From the NCBI GenBank assembly GCA_903833215.1, contig CAILEM010000064.1, positions 1-64,000 of the forward strand: a stretch of 64,000 nucleotides of DNA, given 5' to 3'. Under the pieces are notes generated by a model that was not told the DNA's origin, did no database searches, and saw only the letters and a program-made list of their open reading frames with translations. The translations under genes were made by a program, and so were the position numbers. The first letter of the stretch is position 1, and each line of letters opens with the position of its first letter. Source of the DNA: an uncultured Armatimonadota bacterium (GTDB taxonomy: Bacteria > Armatimonadota > Fimbriimonadia > Fimbriimonadales > Fimbriimonadaceae). Of this stretch, positions 4,088-39,324 are shown one piece after another.

Positions 4088-4501
4088 TCATAGCGGGACA
4101 TCCACGGGTTTTACGATGTAGGCTTTTGCACCGGCTTGCCTTAGAGCGCGGATTTGAGATGTGGTGGCATCAGCACTCAACACTACGACAGGAATACCAG
4201 CAGTATCTTGCTGAGATGTGAGCCTGCGAATTACTTCCAAGCCCGACATATCGGGCAAATGAACATCGAGCAGAACCATATCAGGCTTGTGCTCCTCGAC
4301 GAGACGAATGCCCTCGCTGCCAAATGAGGTTGCGATGATTTCAAAGGCACCTGTAGATTTGGTAACCGAATACATCAGGGCCAGATTCGCCAAGTTATCC
4401 TCGATGTAAACAATGCTAGAGTTATTTTCTGGACGAACCACCTCGCGTAGAACAGGAGGAGTGGTAGCGTTACCAACGCCGACCGGTACCACTACCTCCA
4501 T
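4088..4501 (-). CDS. Orphan response-regulator receiver domain, probable hybrid-kinase remnant
   Basis: This 137-residue protein is a CheY-like receiver. It has the acidic pair Glu34-Asp35 in YIEDN, phospho-acceptor Asp79 in LLDVHLPDM, Ser109 in VVLSAD and Lys131 in YIVKP. The sequence style (YIEDNLANL, LSADATTSQIRAL) is that of receivers at the C-terminus of hybrid histidine kinases. The 25 residues before the receiver look like a linker, and the protein stops at KPVDVPL, before the last helix normally present. Only about 110 bp separates it from the next gene, with no kinase coding visible. It is therefore either a stand-alone receiver or the decayed tail of a lost kinase. No Shine-Dalgarno sequence precedes the ATG. 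Confidence 0.6.
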   Translation of the reverse strand: MEVVVPVGVGNATTPPVLREVVRPENNSSIVYIEDNLANLALMYSVTKSTGAFEIIATSFGSEGIRLVEEHKPDMVLLDVHLPDMSGLEVIRRLTSQQDTAGIPVVVLSADATTSQIRALRQAGAKAYIVKPVDVPL

Positions 4502-4614
4502 TGGAATATCGAGCCATTGTAAGGAGGCTTGACAAATTCAACTCGACTCCAATAGGGTCCATTCAGCGACGGGATACTTCAAGTCCCGTAAAGTACAACA
4601 GGTACCCTCCATTC

Positions 4615-5400
4615 ATGCAGAAGCCGCTCAATGGGTTCACCCTTATTGAACTTCTCGTTGTGATCGCGATCATCGCGATTCTGGCTGCGATCCTATTTCC
4701 TGTGTTCGCGAAGGCGAAGTCTGCGGCGAAGAAGACGATGTGTTTGAGCCATGAGATGCAACTTGGGATGGCATTTGCGCTTTATGCGGGGGATTCGGAG
4801 GGTGGGTACCCCAACACCGGCGATCCCTATCTTTGGGTTGGCGAGCGCTTTCGGTGGCCGCTGATGCCTTATTTGGCGTTGGCACTCAAGCAGAATCCGC
4901 CAACTGATTCAGATCCCTTTGCTTCGAATAGCCAATGGTCATTGCTCCTTCAATGCCCAGAAGACTCGGGCGCGACCAGCTTCAACCATACGAGTTACGC
5001 CTACGCCGTCGCATTTTATGAGAGCGAGGCAGCACTCGCAGGAATCACCTCAGTTCAGAACCTGATTAAGGGTTTCAATTCACCTGGTTCGCTTGCGACG
5101 CCAACCACTCGAACTGAAGTGGAGGTCGCCTTTCCTAGCCAGAAGGTCCTCATTGGCGAATGGACGAACAACCATGACTTCACCGGCGGCGCGCCTGTCG
5201 GACTCTGGGGAACGCTCCGTGCTCCCTACGATACACCTGGAGCGGATGCCTATACCGGGAGTCGGAACAACGTCTTCGCCGACACTCATGCTAAGTACAT
5301 CAAGGCAAGTCGATTTGTGAAGAAGGACAACCCCAAGGTCAACGCGCCCGACCCAAACCTAACCCCAGGGGGGCTAACCGGGGTCGACATCAACCCTTAA
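4615..5400 (+). CDS. Type II secretion-like pseudopilin (H-X9-DG family)
   Basis: The 262-residue protein starts MQKPLNGFTLIELLVVIA, a class III prepilin leader cleaved before Phe of FTLIE, followed by a hydrophobic helix and the FPVFAKAKSAAKKT segment typical of these proteins. The family C-terminal motif appears here as NVFADTHAKYIK, with Thr instead of the usual Gly in DGH. ATG 4615 is chosen because the frame upstream to 4501 has no leader character. Unlike the three other pseudopilins in the window it has no lipoprotein partner, and its last bases overlap the convergent permease gene by 11 bp. Role: membrane-anchored pseudopilin, partners unknown. Confidence 0.88.
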   Translation: MQKPLNGFTLIELLVVIAIIAILAAILFPVFAKAKSAAKKTMCLSHEMQLGMAFALYAGDSEGGYPNTGDPYLWVGERFRWPLMPYLALALKQNPPTDSDPFASNSQWSLLLQCPEDSGATSFNHTSYAYAVAFYESEAALAGITSVQNLIKGFNSPGSLATPTTRTEVEVAFPSQKVLIGEWTNNHDFTGGAPVGLWGTLRAPYDTPGADAYTGSRNNVFADTHAKYIKASRFVKKDNPKVNAPDPNLTPGGLTGVDINP

Positions 5401-10432: not shown

Positions 10433-11506
10433 ATGGCAGTCACCATACGAGATGTCGCAAAACTAGCAGGAACTTCCATCACGGCAGTTTCGGCAGCGTT
10501 GAATAATACAAGCGGAAGCACGATCCGCGTCAGTCAAGCAACGCGTGAACGTATTTACGATGCAGCCGCCCAATTGGGATACGTTTCCAATCCGATAGCA
10601 AAGAGTTTGGCTACAGGAAAGACAAAGGTTTTGGGCCTAATGCTGCCCTACGCGGATGCTTTCGTCGACCAGAATCCTTTCTCCAATCAGGTGATGTCTG
10701 GCATCATGCGCGAGGTTGTCCACCGTCATTACAACCTAATGCTTTACACGGCGACGAGCGGGATCCAGAAGGATCGCGCAGCGATGCTGGTTGACTCAAA
10801 AATAGAGGGTCTCCTTGTCGTCATGCCTCCCGAAGACAGCGCGATATTCCTAAAATGCAAGAAGCGAAACATTCCCTATGTCTCAATTCTAGATCGCCCT
10901 ACTGCCGGGAGTTGGTCGGTCAATTCTGATGACTACACTGGCGGTCGCATGGCTGCCGAGCACCTTGTTAAGCTCGGACATAAGCGCATGGCCCATTTGA
11001 TGGGATCTCCAGATGTTTCGACGTCGCATCTCCGTGCCAAAGGATTTCGAGACGTCCTAGAAGAAGCTGCAATCGAACTCCGAGAGGATCTCATCGTTCA
11101 ATCTGGCTTTGATTGGCGATTGGGCTTGGACTCCACTGAGCAGCTATTGCAACGCGGGGTTAAAGAAATGCCCACCGCGATCTTTGCCGCGAACGATCTA
11201 TGCGCCGAGGGTGCTATCCGAGCCATTCGAGCGGCCGGGCTCAGCGTACCGAATGATATCGCTGTCGTCGGATATGACGACACCTGGTATGCAACTCTGA
11301 CACAGCCACCTCTGACCACTGTCCACATGCCCATCGAAGAGATGGGCGAAATGGCGGCTAGGATGCTCATCGCCCGACTCGAAGGTGAAGATGAGATTGA
11401 TCCCCAGCCGATACTTCCTGTTTCACTTACTGTTCGCAATTCATGCGGGGCCCATTTGGCTCCATTCGTCGATGGGACAAAGCAGTCCCCACCCGTCCGT
11501 CAATGA
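10433..11506 (+). CDS. LacI-family transcriptional regulator
   Basis: The 357-residue protein has the LacI helix-turn-helix at 4-50 (TIRDVAKLAGTSITAVSAAL, then RERIYDAAAQLGY) with hinge residues before KTKVLGLMLP, followed by a periplasmic-binding-protein-like sugar-sensing domain with the typical SVNSDDYTGGRMAAEHLVKLGHKR and DIAVVGYDDT segments. It heads a six-gene plus-strand operon; the pseudopilin ATG follows its stop by 11 bp. Candidate operators lie just upstream and before the minus-strand ABC transporter. The likely role is a repressor released by a sugar from the degraded glycan. Confidence 0.93.
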   Translation: MAVTIRDVAKLAGTSITAVSAALNNTSGSTIRVSQATRERIYDAAAQLGYVSNPIAKSLATGKTKVLGLMLPYADAFVDQNPFSNQVMSGIMREVVHRHYNLMLYTATSGIQKDRAAMLVDSKIEGLLVVMPPEDSAIFLKCKKRNIPYVSILDRPTAGSWSVNSDDYTGGRMAAEHLVKLGHKRMAHLMGSPDVSTSHLRAKGFRDVLEEAAIELREDLIVQSGFDWRLGLDSTEQLLQRGVKEMPTAIFAANDLCAEGAIRAIRAAGLSVPNDIAVVGYDDTWYATLTQPPLTTVHMPIEEMGEMAARMLIARLEGEDEIDPQPILPVSLTVRNSCGAHLAPFVDGTKQSPPVRQ

Positions 11507-11517
11507 GGAAATGATCT

Positions 11518-12342
11518 ATGCAACGAAATCATAAAGCGTTCACACTTATCGAACTCCTGGTTGTTATCGCGATCATCGCGATCTTAGCCGCGATCCTGTT
11601 CCCAGTCTTCGCTCAAGCGAAGCTTGCCGCCAAGAAAACGGCGGATCTGTCCAATCTGAAGCAGTACGCAACCGGCATCACCATCTATATCAATGATTCT
11701 GATGACACTTATCCTCGACTTGTGCAGGGTGACTTCACCAACTGGCCAGTCAGTACAGCGTTGTGGTCCAGCCAGCTAGTAGTTCAACCTTACATTAAGA
11801 ACACGGATCTGATTAAGTCGCCGGTTGACACCTTTCCAAAGATCGACAACGCCGCTTATTTCGGTCTACCAGACAGCCGGCCCACAAAAGTCATGTCGTA
11901 CTGGCCCAATGCCATCTCGGACTTTGGATATGCGGATTGGGGAGTGAACAATCCCACTGGGCTCTTCACTATTCCCGGCAACTTTACGAACTCCAACTCT
12001 TCGGCGACATCCGCAACATCCGTTGGTTCTCCTACCGATGTCGTCATGCTCGCCAATGGTTTGGATGAGTACTACAACTACGCGTACGGTTGCGGCGAAT
12101 GGCTGAACAATGAAGTGGACTACTGCTATGTGTTCCCTGGCATTTACGGCGACTGGATTCCAACCGGTATCCGTTTGGCGACCCCGACATCACCAAACCC
12201 ATTCTGGAAGGCAATGTACAACTCTTGGCGCAAGTTCAGCGGCGGTTCGAATTTTGTAATGGCAGACACCAGTGCGAAGTTCCACAAGCCGGACGAAATG
12301 GACAGTCCCAAACACTGGCTGGCAAACTACACTGGTAAATAG
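11518..12342 (+). CDS. Type II secretion-like pseudopilin in glycosidase operon
   Basis: The 274-residue protein begins MQRNHKAFTLIELLVVIA, with cleavage expected before Phe8, then the hydrophobic helix and FPVFAQAKLAAKKTADLSNLKQ. The C-terminal motif is degenerate (FVMADTSAKFH instead of ADGHxK). A GAGGAA ribosome site overlaps the lacI stop codon, so translation is likely coupled. The lipoprotein ATG begins 1 bp after the stop. Placement between a sugar-responsive regulator and glycosidases suggests a structural or surface role in glycan use, which is inference. A strong hairpin begins 33 nt after the stop codon. Confidence 0.9.
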   Translation: MQRNHKAFTLIELLVVIAIIAILAAILFPVFAQAKLAAKKTADLSNLKQYATGITIYINDSDDTYPRLVQGDFTNWPVSTALWSSQLVVQPYIKNTDLIKSPVDTFPKIDNAAYFGLPDSRPTKVMSYWPNAISDFGYADWGVNNPTGLFTIPGNFTNSNSSATSATSVGSPTDVVMLANGLDEYYNYAYGCGEWLNNEVDYCYVFPGIYGDWIPTGIRLATPTSPNPFWKAMYNSWRKFSGGSNFVMADTSAKFHKPDEMDSPKHWLANYTGK

Positions 12343-12343
12343 G

Positions 12344-12619
12344 ATGAAGCACAAACTCTTGATCCTGGGATCCGCTTTCGCAGTCGCACTCGTGTGCGGC
12401 TGCGGAAGCAAAGATGATTCGGCTCCGTCGGCGGAGACAGCAAAGCAAGCCGATCGCCTAACCCAAATCCAAACCAAGACCAATGGTGATTGGAGCAAAC
12501 TCACGGACGCGGATAAGAGCTACCTCGTAAACGATCTTGCCCACGGCAGCGAGTCCACTGCGAAGATGTTGCTAGGTCCTTCGAGACCCTCCAAGCCTCC
12601 TGGCGTCGGCGGCAAATAG
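12344..12619 (+). CDS. Small lipoprotein partnered with pseudopilin
   Basis: The 91-residue protein has a signal peptide MKHKLLILGSAFAVALVCGC with lipobox VCGC (lipidated Cys20), then a short polar tail with little predicted structure. No known family is recognised. Its ATG is 1 bp past the pseudopilin stop, so the two are coupled. Equivalent mini-lipoproteins follow the pseudopilins at 29347-30276 and 38298-39101, although their sequences share only the leader type and proline-rich tails. A membrane-anchored accessory or pilotin-like role for the pseudopilin is a guess. Confidence 0.8.
   Translation: MKHKLLILGSAFAVALVCGCGSKDDSAPSAETAKQADRLTQIQTKTNGDWSKLTDADKSYLVNDLAHGSESTAKMLLGPSRPSKPPGVGGK
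12375..12408 (+). other. Strong hairpin inside lipoprotein signal-peptide codons
   Basis: Fifteen consecutive base pairs (two G-T wobbles) with a TCGT loop start 33 nt after the pseudopilin stop. There is no T-run. It could protect or pause the pseudopilin mRNA 3' end and lower expression of downstream genes. Confidence 0.7.
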
Positions 12620-12625
12620 CGCTAC

Positions 12626-12653
12626 AGAGTCGGGCTTCAGCGTGCCCGGCTCT
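12626..12653 (+). other. Intercistronic hairpin before glycosidase gene
   Basis: AGAGTCGGGC pairs with GCCCGGCTCT (one G-T wobble) around an 8-nt loop, 7 nt after the lipoprotein stop and 9 nt before the next ATG. No T-run follows, so attenuation or mRNA processing is more likely than full termination. Confidence 0.6.
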
Positions 12654-12661
12654 CCAATCTG

Positions 12662-14395
12662 ATGATAATCCTTCCACTTTTAGGGTTCGCATGTGTGTGC
12701 CTCAAGCACACACCTCAGGCAGTTATTGAGGTTCAAAAGACGGGTCCGGCATGGTCGTTCGTCACCCCAAAGGGTCAGCCCTTCTGGTCTTATGCGATCG
12801 ACTGTGTGGATACTGGCACGAGCAGGAAAGACTACAAGGCAAGTAACAAATCCTACGCGGCCTTCCGATATTTCCTCAATGATCAGGAGTGGGCTTTAGA
12901 CGCGACTCAAAAGCTGAAGACTTGGGGGTTTAACTCAACTGGGGGCTGGTCGAACGATGATCTCTTCCAAAAGTTTGCGGGCAAGGCGCGGATGCCTTAT
13001 TTCGTTGTGCTGCACTTAGGTGCCTATGATATGGCACCGTGGCACGACTTATTTGCCCCCCCAATGGAGCGGTTGACGGACGCTGCCGCCAAAAAGCAGA
13101 TCACTCCGATCGCCAACGATCCTTACCTCGCCGGATATTTCACAGATAACGAACTTGGTTGGTGGGATGACACGCTTTTCATTTCCTACCTCGGCATGAA
13201 GCAGGCGGCTCCGGGGCGCAAAGCACTGATCAATACCATCAAGAAGTTCTACGGCAGCGACTTCGGTCGCTTGGCCAAAGATTGGGTTGTCGACGGTCAC
13301 AGTTTCGAAACGATCAAGTCATTGAAAATGCGTCCGGGAGGGACAGGGCGAAAAGCCGTCAACGCCTTTGTGCAGGTTGTAGGAGAGCGCTACTACTCTC
13401 TGATGCACTCCACGATTCGAAGGTACGACAAGCATCATCTGATTCTCGGAGACCGATTCTGCCAGTACTACACGCTGCCAATTGTTCGGGCCGCATCCAA
13501 ATATGTCGATGTCATGTCCACGAATTTCGGTGCCGATTGGAATGATGGATCAATCACTCCTTTTTTCCTAAGAACCTTACATTCGATGACTGGAAAACCG
13601 GTGCTGATCAGCGAATACTACATGTCGGCCACCGAGAATCGGAGCGGAAACAAGAATTCCGGGTCGGCATTCCCCTTGGTGAAAACCCAAGCTGAACGCG
13701 CCGCTGCGTTTTCCAAGTACACCCGTTCGTTGGCAGCACTACCCTATGTCGTTGGAGCCCATTGGTTCCAGTTCTCCGACGAGCCTGCTCACGGGCGGGG
13801 AGATGGCGAAGACTGGAATATGGGCTTCGTCGACACCGATGGGGTTCCGTACGAGGAGATGGTCTCTGCGTCGAAGTCTCTCGGCATAGCCTCGCTACGC
13901 ATCCACGCGCGAGATAATCAACCCTACGACACGGTATTGGTGCCCAACATCCAGAACGCATCTCTGTCATCACTAAAGGTCTGGCCACGAGATGCTGGAG
14001 TGATCCAATGCACGCAGGGACAAGCGTTTGCGGATATGTTCGTTGCTAAGAGCAAGGAAAACCTGTACTTTGGCCTGTACGCCATGGATTATATGGACGA
14101 GAGTATCTACATGGGCGGGCGTATCGCTGAAGTTGATCGTGCTCACTGGCGGATCCGAATATCTGGATTACCACAGCCAATCGATATTCGGTTCGGCGGC
14201 AAGAATCATCCATTGACGGTCAACAATCCTGCCATCGAGGCTAAGGAAGTTGGGGGGCTGAAGCACACAGTGATGCTCAAGATCCCTAAATCATTGCTTA
14301 GCAAGCCTTCAACATTCGCGGTTAGTTCGACTCTGGACTCACACGGGCGGGGCGAACATATGGTATGGCACGCCACCTTGCAAGGGCTGAAATAG
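12662..14395 (+). CDS. Putative glycoside hydrolase (agarase-like, clan A fold), paralog 1
   Basis: The 577-residue protein has a short hydrophobic leader (MIILPLLGFACVCL) and a TIM-barrel-like body. GYFTDNELGWW (Glu164) and PVLISEYY (Glu318) are placed as the acid/base and nucleophile of clan GH-A enzymes. The overall look recalls beta-agarase-annotated proteins of planctomycetes (GH50/GH86-like), but I cannot name the family. A C-terminal beta domain from about 450 resembles a carbohydrate-binding module. The gene is followed without any spacer by a paralog (TAG directly followed by GTG). It is the first enzyme of the LacI-pseudopilin operon. Confidence 0.75.
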   Translation: MIILPLLGFACVCLKHTPQAVIEVQKTGPAWSFVTPKGQPFWSYAIDCVDTGTSRKDYKASNKSYAAFRYFLNDQEWALDATQKLKTWGFNSTGGWSNDDLFQKFAGKARMPYFVVLHLGAYDMAPWHDLFAPPMERLTDAAAKKQITPIANDPYLAGYFTDNELGWWDDTLFISYLGMKQAAPGRKALINTIKKFYGSDFGRLAKDWVVDGHSFETIKSLKMRPGGTGRKAVNAFVQVVGERYYSLMHSTIRRYDKHHLILGDRFCQYYTLPIVRAASKYVDVMSTNFGADWNDGSITPFFLRTLHSMTGKPVLISEYYMSATENRSGNKNSGSAFPLVKTQAERAAAFSKYTRSLAALPYVVGAHWFQFSDEPAHGRGDGEDWNMGFVDTDGVPYEEMVSASKSLGIASLRIHARDNQPYDTVLVPNIQNASLSSLKVWPRDAGVIQCTQGQAFADMFVAKSKENLYFGLYAMDYMDESIYMGGRIAEVDRAHWRIRISGLPQPIDIRFGGKNHPLTVNNPAIEAKEVGGLKHTVMLKIPKSLLSKPSTFAVSSTLDSHGRGEHMVWHATLQGLK

Positions 14396-28641: not shown

Positions 28642-28717
28642 TGGTCGTAATGGCGCTATTCGAACGCGCGACCTTCCCGATCTGATCGGGACACTCTAAA
28701 ATCTGAGACACAATTCG
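28642..28717 (-). pseudogene. Decayed tRNA-Pro copy
   Basis: The 76-nt stretch keeps a TTCGAAT T-loop, an encoded CCA end and a TCCCG/CGGGA anticodon stem, but the D-loop GG is lost, the T-stem has a G-A mismatch and the acceptor stem pairs at only about 5 of 7 positions. The anticodon position would read CAG. It lies 4 bp downstream of the intact tRNA-Pro and looks like a tandem duplicate in decay. Confidence 0.6.
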
Positions 28718-28721
28718 AAAT

Positions 28722-28798
28722 TGGTCGGGATGGCGAGATTCGAACTCACGACCTCTGCGTCCCGAACGCAGCACTCTACCAAACTGAGCCACATCCCG
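28722..28798 (-). tRNA. tRNA-Pro (anticodon CGG)
   Basis: The 77-nt gene includes the encoded CCA. The acceptor stem CGGGATG/CATCCCG is perfect, the D-arm reads GGCTCAGTTTGGTAGAG, the anticodon stem-loop is CTGCG-TTCGGGA-CGCAG (anticodon CGG, decoding CCG), and the T-arm is GTGAG-TTCGAAT-CTCGC. A -10-like TAATAT lies at 28810-28815 on the minus strand, 11 bp before the 5' end. It is flanked by two degraded copies. Confidence 0.96.
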
Positions 28799-28887
28799 AC
28801 CTAGACTGAATATTACCACGGTTAGATTCAGGTAACGAATCTAGAGATCTACCCCTGCTACAAATGTTCCTCTCGCTCAAAACATCT

Positions 28888-28966
28888 TGGTCTAGAAGGC
28901 GGAAAGCGGGAATCCACGACCTTCCCGATTCCATCGGGACGCTCTACCAAGCTGAGCCACATCCCG
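28888..28966 (-). pseudogene. Decayed tRNA-Pro copy with intact 5' half
   Basis: The 5' half (CGGGATGTGGCTCAGCTTGGTAGAGCG) is nearly identical to the intact tRNA-Pro, but the T-loop is TTCCCGC and the 3' acceptor strand no longer pairs well. The anticodon loop position would read GGA. About 25 bp upstream of the 5' end are also similar to the flank of the intact gene (AATATT then CTAG), so the duplication included the promoter. Confidence 0.65.
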
Positions 28967-29090
28967 ACTCTAGGCCAAATATTTCCCCGATTAGTTTCGA
29001 AGTTTTGAAACTTGACTTTCTGGGTCTGCGATAGGGTGAGTAAGCGTTTAGACTTAGCTTCTCGACTGAATTGAAGTGGTTCGAGTAGTG

Positions 29091-29297: not shown

Positions 29298-29326
29298 AGT
29301 CGGAGGCGCAATAAACGCCTCCGACT
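29298..29326 (-). other. Perfect hairpin between pseudopilin and lipoprotein genes
   Basis: AGTCGGAGGCG and CGCCTCCGACT form an 11-bp perfect stem around a 7-nt loop, 20 nt after the pseudopilin stop. No T-run follows on the minus strand, so partial termination or mRNA end protection is likely. Confidence 0.75.
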
Positions 29327-29346: not shown

Positions 29347-30276
29347 TTACTTGACGCCCTGCTTCCACGGATCCCACATGGAGGTGAGCTTGTTACCGTT
29401 ATCGACCAAGTCCCAGATAACGCGAACAGCTGGGAAGGATTTTGCGTGTCCATCAGCAAACGCTGCGTTGAGGAAGCCATTGTTGCGCTTCTTGACCTGC
29501 TCGATATAAGCGTTGTCAGCGGCTACGCTTCCGTAGGGGCTGGTGTAACCAGCAGCTGCATCACAAGCGGAGCCGCCAAGTTGAACCCAATAGTTATAGT
29601 AGTCGCAGTCCGAGTTGTTGTCGGTGAAGTACTGTGTGCCAGCTGGATCGCCAATGAACTGGCCGAGAGGAGCCCAAGCATTTGTTCCATCGTGACCAGA
29701 CATCTTCGGCATGACATCGTAGTATGTCGTGTCGGTAATGATGAGGGTGTTCGCTGACTCAGCGATGACGCTCGCACTCATTGCGGCCTGGTTGGCATTA
29801 AAGACGATGCGGTTTACGCCGTAGGAGTTTTGTCCGCCGTAGGAGCAGTCAGGGTTGCCACCAGGACCAGCCATGCTGCCGCCGCCTGGCTCAACATTTA
29901 CCCACGCATTGGTAACGCCAGGGCCCTTGAACATGTCATGGCTCTTGATGTATGGGTAGAGCTGAACGTTCCAAAACTGCTTCTTGGATGCCGATGAGCC
30001 TGCGCATGCACCTGATCCAACGTTTGGATCCTGCCAGAATGGGTTCCACTGCGGATTACTAGTGCTCGTTCGGTAGAGGAACAAGGTGTCATCGTTGTCG
30101 GTGTAGTACATGAAGCTGGCGGTTGCCATCTGCTTCATATTCGAAAGATCCGTGGTCTTCTTAGCTGCAGCCTTTGCTTGGGCAAATACTGGGAAAAGAA
30201 TTGCGGCAAGGATCGCGATAATCGCGATGACGACGAGGAGCTCGATGAGCGTGAAGGCGCTAGCGTTTTTTCGCAT
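29347..30276 (-). CDS. Type II secretion-like pseudopilin (H-X9-DG family)
   Basis: The 309-residue protein begins MRKNASAFTLIELLVVIA with cleavage expected before Phe8, followed by the conserved helix, FPVFAQAKAAAKKTTDLSNMKQ and a C-terminal intact AFADGHAKSFPAVR motif. Several Cys residues (SGACAGS, NPDCSYGG, DNNSDCDYY, GGSACDAA) suggest disulfides in the exported domain. It pairs with the mini-lipoprotein downstream. No regulator or glycosidase follows, so this copy may be the general housekeeping one. Confidence 0.9.
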   Translation of the reverse strand: MRKNASAFTLIELLVVIAIIAILAAILFPVFAQAKAAAKKTTDLSNMKQMATASFMYYTDNDDTLFLYRTSTSNPQWNPFWQDPNVGSGACAGSSASKKQFWNVQLYPYIKSHDMFKGPGVTNAWVNVEPGGGSMAGPGGNPDCSYGGQNSYGVNRIVFNANQAAMSASVIAESANTLIITDTTYYDVMPKMSGHDGTNAWAPLGQFIGDPAGTQYFTDNNSDCDYYNYWVQLGGSACDAAAGYTSPYGSVAADNAYIEQVKKRNNGFLNAAFADGHAKSFPAVRVIWDLVDNGNKLTSMWDPWKQGVK

Positions 30277-38259: not shown

Positions 38260-38297
38260 ATGGAAATAGCCTAATGACCACGAAGACGAGGTCCCTT

Positions 38298-39101
38298 ATG
38301 AAGAAAGCATTTACTCTCATCGAACTCTTAGTCGTAATCGCCATCATCGCGATTCTCGCCGCGATCCTCTTCCCCGTTTTTGCTCAAGAGAAGATGGCAG
38401 CAAAGAAGACAGCAGACCTCTCCAATCTCAAGCAGATCGGACTCGGAATCATGATGTACATGAACGATTCGGATGACATGTTTCCACGCGGTGGCATCCA
38501 GGACGCCGCTGGAAATTGGGTGACGTGGCGTGAATCCGTCCTTCCTTACATCAAGAACGGCCAACAGAGCTACAACAACGGCGACACCTACGTGAACGGT
38601 GGAATGTGGACCAGCCCTTCGCAACCGGCGAACTCCATGTACGGTTACGGCGCTCACGATGGACTAATCCCTGCTAACTACAGTTGGTATGCACCGAACT
38701 CTTTCAATTCATCTCACAGCGGAACAGCACTCGATAACGCATCAAGAACTCTGCTCGTTACCACCATCGGGATCAATCCGAACTGGAACGCAGGTTCCGC
38801 GATTGGAGTCGAGACTCTGATGTGGACCTGGTGCAACTGGTCGTGGCCCGTTAAGTGGGATTCCACCGGCATGGCCCAATACGAGGGCGACAACAAGGAC
38901 TCCGACGGCAAGATCGGCTGGAAGCTGCCTCGGTATCGATATACCGATTCAGCGAACATCGCTTGGGGTGATGGTCACGCAAAGTCTGTGAAGAAGGGTG
39001 GGCTGGATTGGTGTCGAAACATCTACACCAACGGGTTTAACGATGCTGGCGGTAATGACGACTGGCTCTGGTCTTCAGGAAATGCCTGCTATGGTAAGTA
39101 A
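38298..39101 (+). CDS. Type II secretion-like pseudopilin with GH5 operon
   Basis: The 267-residue protein starts MKKAFTLIELLVVIA (cleavage before Phe5), with FPVFAQEKMAAKKTADLSNLKQIGLGIMMYMNDSDD and C-terminal IAWGDGHAKSVKKGG, keeping the DGH motif. ATG 38298 follows a GAGG ribosome site and is preferred over 38274. It leads a lipoprotein (overlapping by 11 bp) and a GH5-like enzyme, and is divergent from a LacI gene. This is the second regulator-pseudopilin-lipoprotein-glycosidase set in the window. Confidence 0.91.
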   Translation: MKKAFTLIELLVVIAIIAILAAILFPVFAQEKMAAKKTADLSNLKQIGLGIMMYMNDSDDMFPRGGIQDAAGNWVTWRESVLPYIKNGQQSYNNGDTYVNGGMWTSPSQPANSMYGYGAHDGLIPANYSWYAPNSFNSSHSGTALDNASRTLLVTTIGINPNWNAGSAIGVETLMWTWCNWSWPVKWDSTGMAQYEGDNKDSDGKIGWKLPRYRYTDSANIAWGDGHAKSVKKGGLDWCRNIYTNGFNDAGGNDDWLWSSGNACYGK

Positions 39102-39324
39102 GTCGTCCAAGATCCTCCCCATGTGGGGAGGAATCCTATTGATGATTGGTGGCTGTGGTGGGGGTGCTGATAACTCGCCTGAGATGGGTAAGGTGCCACC
39201 AAAGCCAAACCTAAACATGAATGCTCAGTTGCCCCCCGAAATTCAAAGCCAAATGTCTCAAGCCAAACCAGGTTCCGATGCGGCCAAGATGGGGTCAATG
39301 AAGCCTCATTCTGGCAAGCCCTGA
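39091..39324 (+). CDS. Small lipoprotein partnered with pseudopilin
   Basis: The 77-residue protein has a leader ending MIGGC (lipidated Cys24 from ATG 39091; a second ATG at 39121 is possible), followed by a Pro/Met/Gln-rich tail (GKVPPKPNLNMNAQLPPEIQ). It overlaps the pseudopilin end by 11 bp, so translation is coupled. Same position as the mini-lipoproteins at 12344 and 29150. No family known to me. Confidence 0.75.
   Translation: MVSKSSKILPMWGGILLMIGGCGGGADNSPEMGKVPPKPNLNMNAQLPPEIQSQMSQAKPGSDAAKMGSMKPHSGKP
39113..39132 (+). other. Hairpin 11 nt after pseudopilin stop
   Basis: TCCTCCCC and GGGGAGGA form a perfect 8-bp stem with a 4-nt ATGT loop inside the lipoprotein leader codons. If ATG 39121 were the true start, the hairpin loop would hold it, which would regulate translation. 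Confidence 0.7.

Follow-up and report, generated by a model that had tools for sequence, protein, structure and literature searches.

Hairpins that have no U-tract and lie mostly in the next open reading frame protect the 5'-most gene, as measured RNA has indicated (Dar and Sorek 2018, PMC5927463). In differential decay of the malE-malF type, a stable hairpin without a U-tract likewise follows the 5'-most gene, in many cases within the reading frame that comes next, and its structure is conserved between related species, as is the case for the hairpins behind pseudopilin genes of Fimbriimonas described here. However, the malE-malF type is scattered over E. coli operons, whereas here a single gene family is concerned at dozens of loci per genome. 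The malE-malF hairpins are situated on average 107 nt into the next reading frame, while those of Fimbriimonas usually occupy a spacer or stand about 31 nt into a leader. Unlike the malE-malF type, the Fimbriimonas hairpins also show complete sequence turnover.

In the ABC-importer operons of cellulolytic clostridia, a spacer stem-loop with a long stem and weak U content likewise follows the first, surface-exposed gene, and termination at such low-U stem-loops behind SBP genes amounts to 20.7-96.1% (PMC9045158). That system concerns clostridia and ABC binding proteins, and the sections considered describe no leader-embedded type, unlike what is seen in Fimbriimonas. Selective RNA processing and stabilisation in Clostridium cellulolyticum (cip-cel operon) involves stem-loops at the 3' ends of highly transcribed genes, which set the subunit ratios of the operon and resemble the role proposed here (PMC4423207). 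Termination was measured in the former system and processing sites were mapped in the latter, whereas the Fimbriimonas hairpins were found by sequence analysis. A literature search found nothing on pilin mRNA of Fimbriimonas or Armatimonadota or on pseudopilin-lipoprotein pairs. Elements of this kind are known; what appears to be new is that a single gene family in this phylum is systematically equipped with them.

The window analysed is a stretch of 64 kb from a genome of 6.2 Mb (G000), in which the pilin methylation motif PF07963 is matched 103 times and about 100 pseudopilins are encoded. Fimbriimonas ginsengisoli Gsoil 348 has been reported with 79 PulG-like genes (PMC4072686). A small lipoprotein reading frame lies behind about 30-40 pseudopilins per genome, and behind roughly 30 in the genome of the window. 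The features of the window are displayed in Table 1. Judged by pseudopilin 1, the genome has its closest named relatives in MAGs under the labels Armatimonadetes and Fimbriimonas.

Table 1. Pseudopilin modules and RNA hairpins in the 64-kb window.
Feature	Position	Strand	Remarks
Pseudopilin 4	4501..5400	+	no lipoprotein partner
LacI-family sugar-responsive regulator	10433..11506	+	upstream of pseudopilin 1
Pseudopilin 1	11518..12342	+	prepilin N-terminal methylation motif PF07963
Small lipoprotein 1	12344..12619	+	start 1 nt past pseudopilin 1 stop
RNA hairpin 1, 16 bp (2 G.U), 4-nt loop	12374..12409	+	in lipoprotein 1 signal-peptide codons
Second RNA hairpin, 10-bp stem	12626..12653	+	between lipoprotein 1 stop and next gene; -19.7 kcal/mol
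Downstream gene of pseudopilin 1 module, 577 aa	12662..14395	+	no Pfam match
Small lipoprotein 2, 44 aa	29150..29284	-	
RNA hairpin 2, 11 perfect bp + inner G.U	29298..29326	-	spacer, pseudopilin 2 stop to lipoprotein 2 start
Pseudopilin 2	29347..30276	-	
Pseudopilin 3	38274..39101	+	PF07963 and DUF1559/SBP_bac_10
Small lipoprotein 3	39091..39324	+	start overlaps pseudopilin 3 end
Hairpin 3, 8 bp	39113..39132	+	in lipoprotein 3 leader

A preliminary description of the window had reported a strong hairpin just past the stop codon of each paired pseudopilin, two of them in lipoprotein leader codons and none with a T-run. Stems are present at all three places that it gave (12375-12408, 29298-29326 and 39113-39132). 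The first, described as 15 bp, extends slightly further on both sides, the second has its 11 perfect pairs and an inner G.U besides, and the 8 bp of the third were confirmed. The position of hairpins 1 and 3 in leader codons and the lack of a T-run at all three sites were also correct. The word strong is appropriate for hairpin 1 (z = -5.0, p 0.001 against dinucleotide shuffles; z = -5.8 against synonymous shuffles) and hairpin 2 (z = -6.6, p 0.001 against dinucleotide shuffles), but not for hairpin 3, which is within chance (z = -0.8, p 0.20 by dinucleotide shuffle; z = -0.9 by synonymous recoding); strong hairpins are present at this site in several orthologues. Pseudopilin 4, for which no strong hairpin had been claimed, indeed has no significant one in the 70 nt past its stop (z = -1.45, p 0.09). 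The second hairpin, past the stop of lipoprotein 1, had been missed.

In hairpin 1 the lipobox Gly-Cys codons fall in the 3' arm. Within the P0001 group, this hairpin is kept in an orthologue of 92% protein identity (L111/L113) and absent from one of 88% (L112/L114). Lipoprotein 1 has no Pfam or NCBIfam match, and neither does the conserved C-terminal motif DWSKLxDADKxYLVxDLAHGSExTAxMLLGP that it shares with L113-L116. An Rfam covariance-model search of the window gave no match at the hairpins and found only one tRNA. A tRNA-Pro(cgg) gene (28722-28798) is situated between two decayed tRNA-like copies within 28660-28970, with a shared 37-nt stretch of 68-81% identity.

The survey covered all pseudopilin neighbourhoods of G000 and those of the relatives G072 and G061, the latter a genus member with a single contig of 5,231,762 bases. 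Open reading frames were taken as genes, and pseudopilins and lipoproteins were called by motif. Pairs were divided into a spacer class, with the lipoprotein start 17-150 nt past the pseudopilin stop, and an abutting class, with the start at -30 to +16 relative to that stop. A hairpin was defined as a single stem-loop of -18 kcal/mol or below in the first 80 nt past the stop, and the 70 nt past each stop were compared with 1000 dinucleotide-preserving shuffles. Control gene pairs were drawn from pseudopilin neighbourhoods, comprising about 0.9 Mb of G000 plus G072 and G061. The one energy cut-off was applied at any G+C content; the controls come from the same genomes, and the shuffle z-scores agree with it.

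Hairpins were found in 15/15, 12/13 and 17/17 spacer pairs of the three Fimbriimonas genomes. The pooled 44/45 compares with 43/218 control pairs of equal spacing (Fisher p 2e-24), and the mean shuffle z was -4.3, -4.9 and -4.7, against -0.5 to -0.8 for co-directional controls and -1.1 to -2.3 for convergent gene ends. A hairpin after a pseudopilin that is paired across a spacer is a clade-wide rule in these three genomes. In the abutting class, a hairpin near the pseudopilin stop, mostly in the lipoprotein signal-peptide codons, was seen in 29/57 pairs versus 28/191 controls (p 1e-7). The earlier wording that each paired pseudopilin carries the hairpin goes too far: directly after the pseudopilin, about one in two abutting pairs has none. 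Past the lipoprotein stop, a hairpin was found in 79-86% of abutting pairs versus 36% of the spacer class. The excess is largely limited to the 80 nt past the stop, with little or none in windows upstream or further downstream. Unpaired pseudopilins carry hairpins in 44-49% of cases, more than co-directional controls, so part of the effect may reflect ordinary transcript ends.

A shared function of the hairpins, as had been proposed, is strongly supported by these genome-wide and cross-genome comparisons and by the orthologues. The statistics from sequence, together with the precedents in measured RNA, suggest that the hairpins are intercistronic dosage elements that would keep the pseudopilin in excess over the downstream genes. 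We assign this reading a probability of about 0.62. What speaks against it are the abutting pairs with no hairpin right behind the pseudopilin, the orthologues that have none (L112/L114, L280), the weakness of the U-tracts and the hairpins of unpaired pseudopilins.

In the spacer class the hairpins start at a median of 11 nt past the pseudopilin stop (most at 8-18), which, given the general size of a ribosome footprint, is probably about where the terminating ribosome ends. They end at a median of 16.5 nt before the lipoprotein start. Of the two functions suggested at the outset, a stable mRNA end with less read-through fits best with the position close behind the stop and with the measured-RNA precedents. 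Since the hairpin stands past the pseudopilin stop or past the lipoprotein, it marks where a module ends, be it the pseudopilin by itself or together with its lipoprotein, and another gene often follows closely.

Full intrinsic terminators would also form mRNA ends, in which case the pseudopilin transcript would stop at the hairpin and each lipoprotein would have its own promoter. The spacer class does show weak U enrichment (T fractions of 0.45, 0.43 and 0.39 at +2 to +4 past the stem), as behind convergent genes, and the hairpins at the ends of short pilA-like genes in these genomes have clear U-tracts. In the 8 nt past the stem, however, the mean number of T is 2.66 in the spacer class, 2.45 behind convergent genes, 3.65 behind the pilA-like genes and 1.31 in leaders, and at least 5 T are reached by 23% of spacer hairpins versus 70% of those behind pilA-like genes. 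The spacer U-tracts are thus no stronger than those behind ordinary convergent genes, and termination efficiency is not predictable from them. In leader hairpins the U-tract is missing altogether. A spacer of 50-70 nt, half of it hairpin, leaves scant space for a promoter of the lipoprotein's own; the short distance from hairpin to lipoprotein start leaves no room for one downstream of the hairpin. An arrangement of complete terminators and separate promoters is unlikely, and the pseudopilin and lipoprotein are probably co-transcribed.

The other suggested function, control of lipoprotein translation, would have the hairpin keep the ribosome off, slow it in the leader, or pause it at the signal peptide to assist membrane targeting. 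Leader hairpins begin at a fairly constant distance from the lipoprotein start codon (median 31 nt past it), and the lipobox Gly-Cys codons often form part of their 3' arm. Coupling to upstream translation is plausible, as SD-like sequences were seen at 12/44 partner starts and many starts have no obvious Shine-Dalgarno sequence. But spacer hairpins usually stop 9-25 nt short of the lipoprotein start, which stays free; the start codon lies outside them, with one exception detected. Other lipoproteins of the same genome have no leader hairpins, and most abutting pairs have a hairpin past the lipoprotein. Translation control is less supported than the mRNA end, and we consider it quite unlikely.

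The structure of the hairpins is kept while their sequence turns over. In the L042 group, a hairpin near the stop was found in 29/30 orthologues, which include many genus members and other genera, the one exception being L280; the pairwise identity of these hairpins equals that of shuffled sequence (mean best ungapped 0.42 vs 0.42). Orthologues of L025 alternate between spacer and leader forms of the hairpin. In L154-L167 and L229-L244, orthologous pairs alternate between abutting and spaced arrangements within the genus, and the hairpin shifts between spacer and leader codons. Compensatory changes, for which a search had been recommended, are seen in L156/L157, where 13/14 pairs are kept with 4 double changes against 0 in slid registers. 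In L236/L240, 16/17 pairs are kept with one double change, and slid registers also give up to one. As in differential decay, same-strand hairpins at a gene boundary exceed controls, and structure is kept in relatives, with the exceptions of L112/L114 and L280.

When the codons of paired lipoprotein leaders were shuffled synonymously, the mean z was -1.47 (n=61), with 34% at p <=0.05, compared to +0.15 for 26 other lipoproteins of the same genome. The real leaders are more structured than the protein needs. Their z distribution is bimodal, with about half strong and half resembling controls. Signal-peptide composition as a full account of the leader hairpins was rejected, as such hairpins are missing from other lipoproteins and from synonymous recodings. 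The complete turnover of sequence between species might also be expected of traces of mobile palindromes (REP/MITE-like) or of otherwise neutral structures. No sequence is common to the copies or orthologues, however, for which reason a REP/MITE origin was rejected, and the restriction of hairpins to the junction, the compensatory changes and the synonymous-site selection in leaders leave a neutral or mobile account only a very slight probability.

The genomic context fits a highly expressed surface module placed before less abundant uptake and enzyme genes, as far as gene content can indicate. Of ten upstream genes tested, eight code for LacI or GntR regulators that have a sugar-binding domain, and among the downstream genes are ones for GH31, GH65, ABC solute-binding and permease domains and for Trp-halogenase-like and sulfotransferase proteins. 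Pairs directly behind LacI/GntR sugar regulators are found at 10433-14395, L009, L017, L029, L036, L043, L053, L063 and L075; what follows them are glycosidases, ABC binding proteins or genes of the Trp-halogenase-like type, which gives the impression of one pseudopilin module per sugar locus. The place of the lipoprotein is often taken, in other genera of the family, by a short membrane protein with a single pass, e.g. MDDKKKLVVYAVLAVVAIAGAIFM (L094, L096, L098, L104, L107, L108, L110).

According to the dosage reading, the pseudopilin gene would often be first in a sugar-regulated operon, and the stem-loop directly behind the last ribosome would fix the 3' end of the pseudopilin mRNA, which would be abundant. 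In spacers, a weak U-tract may cause part of transcription to terminate; in leaders, without a U-tract, the transcript may be cleaved further down and 3'-to-5' exonucleases then blocked. Either or both of termination and exonuclease shielding could operate, and low U content is typical both of low-U internal terminators (PMC9045158) and of protective hairpins (PMC5927463), so the sequence does not decide between them. Our preferred view is that both types serve dosage, the spacer hairpins by terminating part of transcription and the leader hairpins by protection. Only a minority of transcript, read-through or intact, would then yield the lipoprotein and the enzymes or transporters encoded after it, and transcript levels of pseudopilin and downstream genes would differ accordingly. 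Where the genes abut, the boundary would usually lie past the lipoprotein, or additionally in its signal-peptide codons. There is a slim chance that the hairpins are instead a dedicated trans-acting control point, at which one RNA-binding protein or RNase would read the structure and adjust all pseudopilin modules together, while the leader type would act on the signal peptide as the lipoprotein is being translated.

With the dosage reading, a whole genus would reuse an RNA shape, and not a sequence, at the junction of one gene family, even within signal-peptide codons. That would tie the large and so far unexplained expansions of pseudopilins in Armatimonadota to sugar-regulated loci with built-in dosage control.
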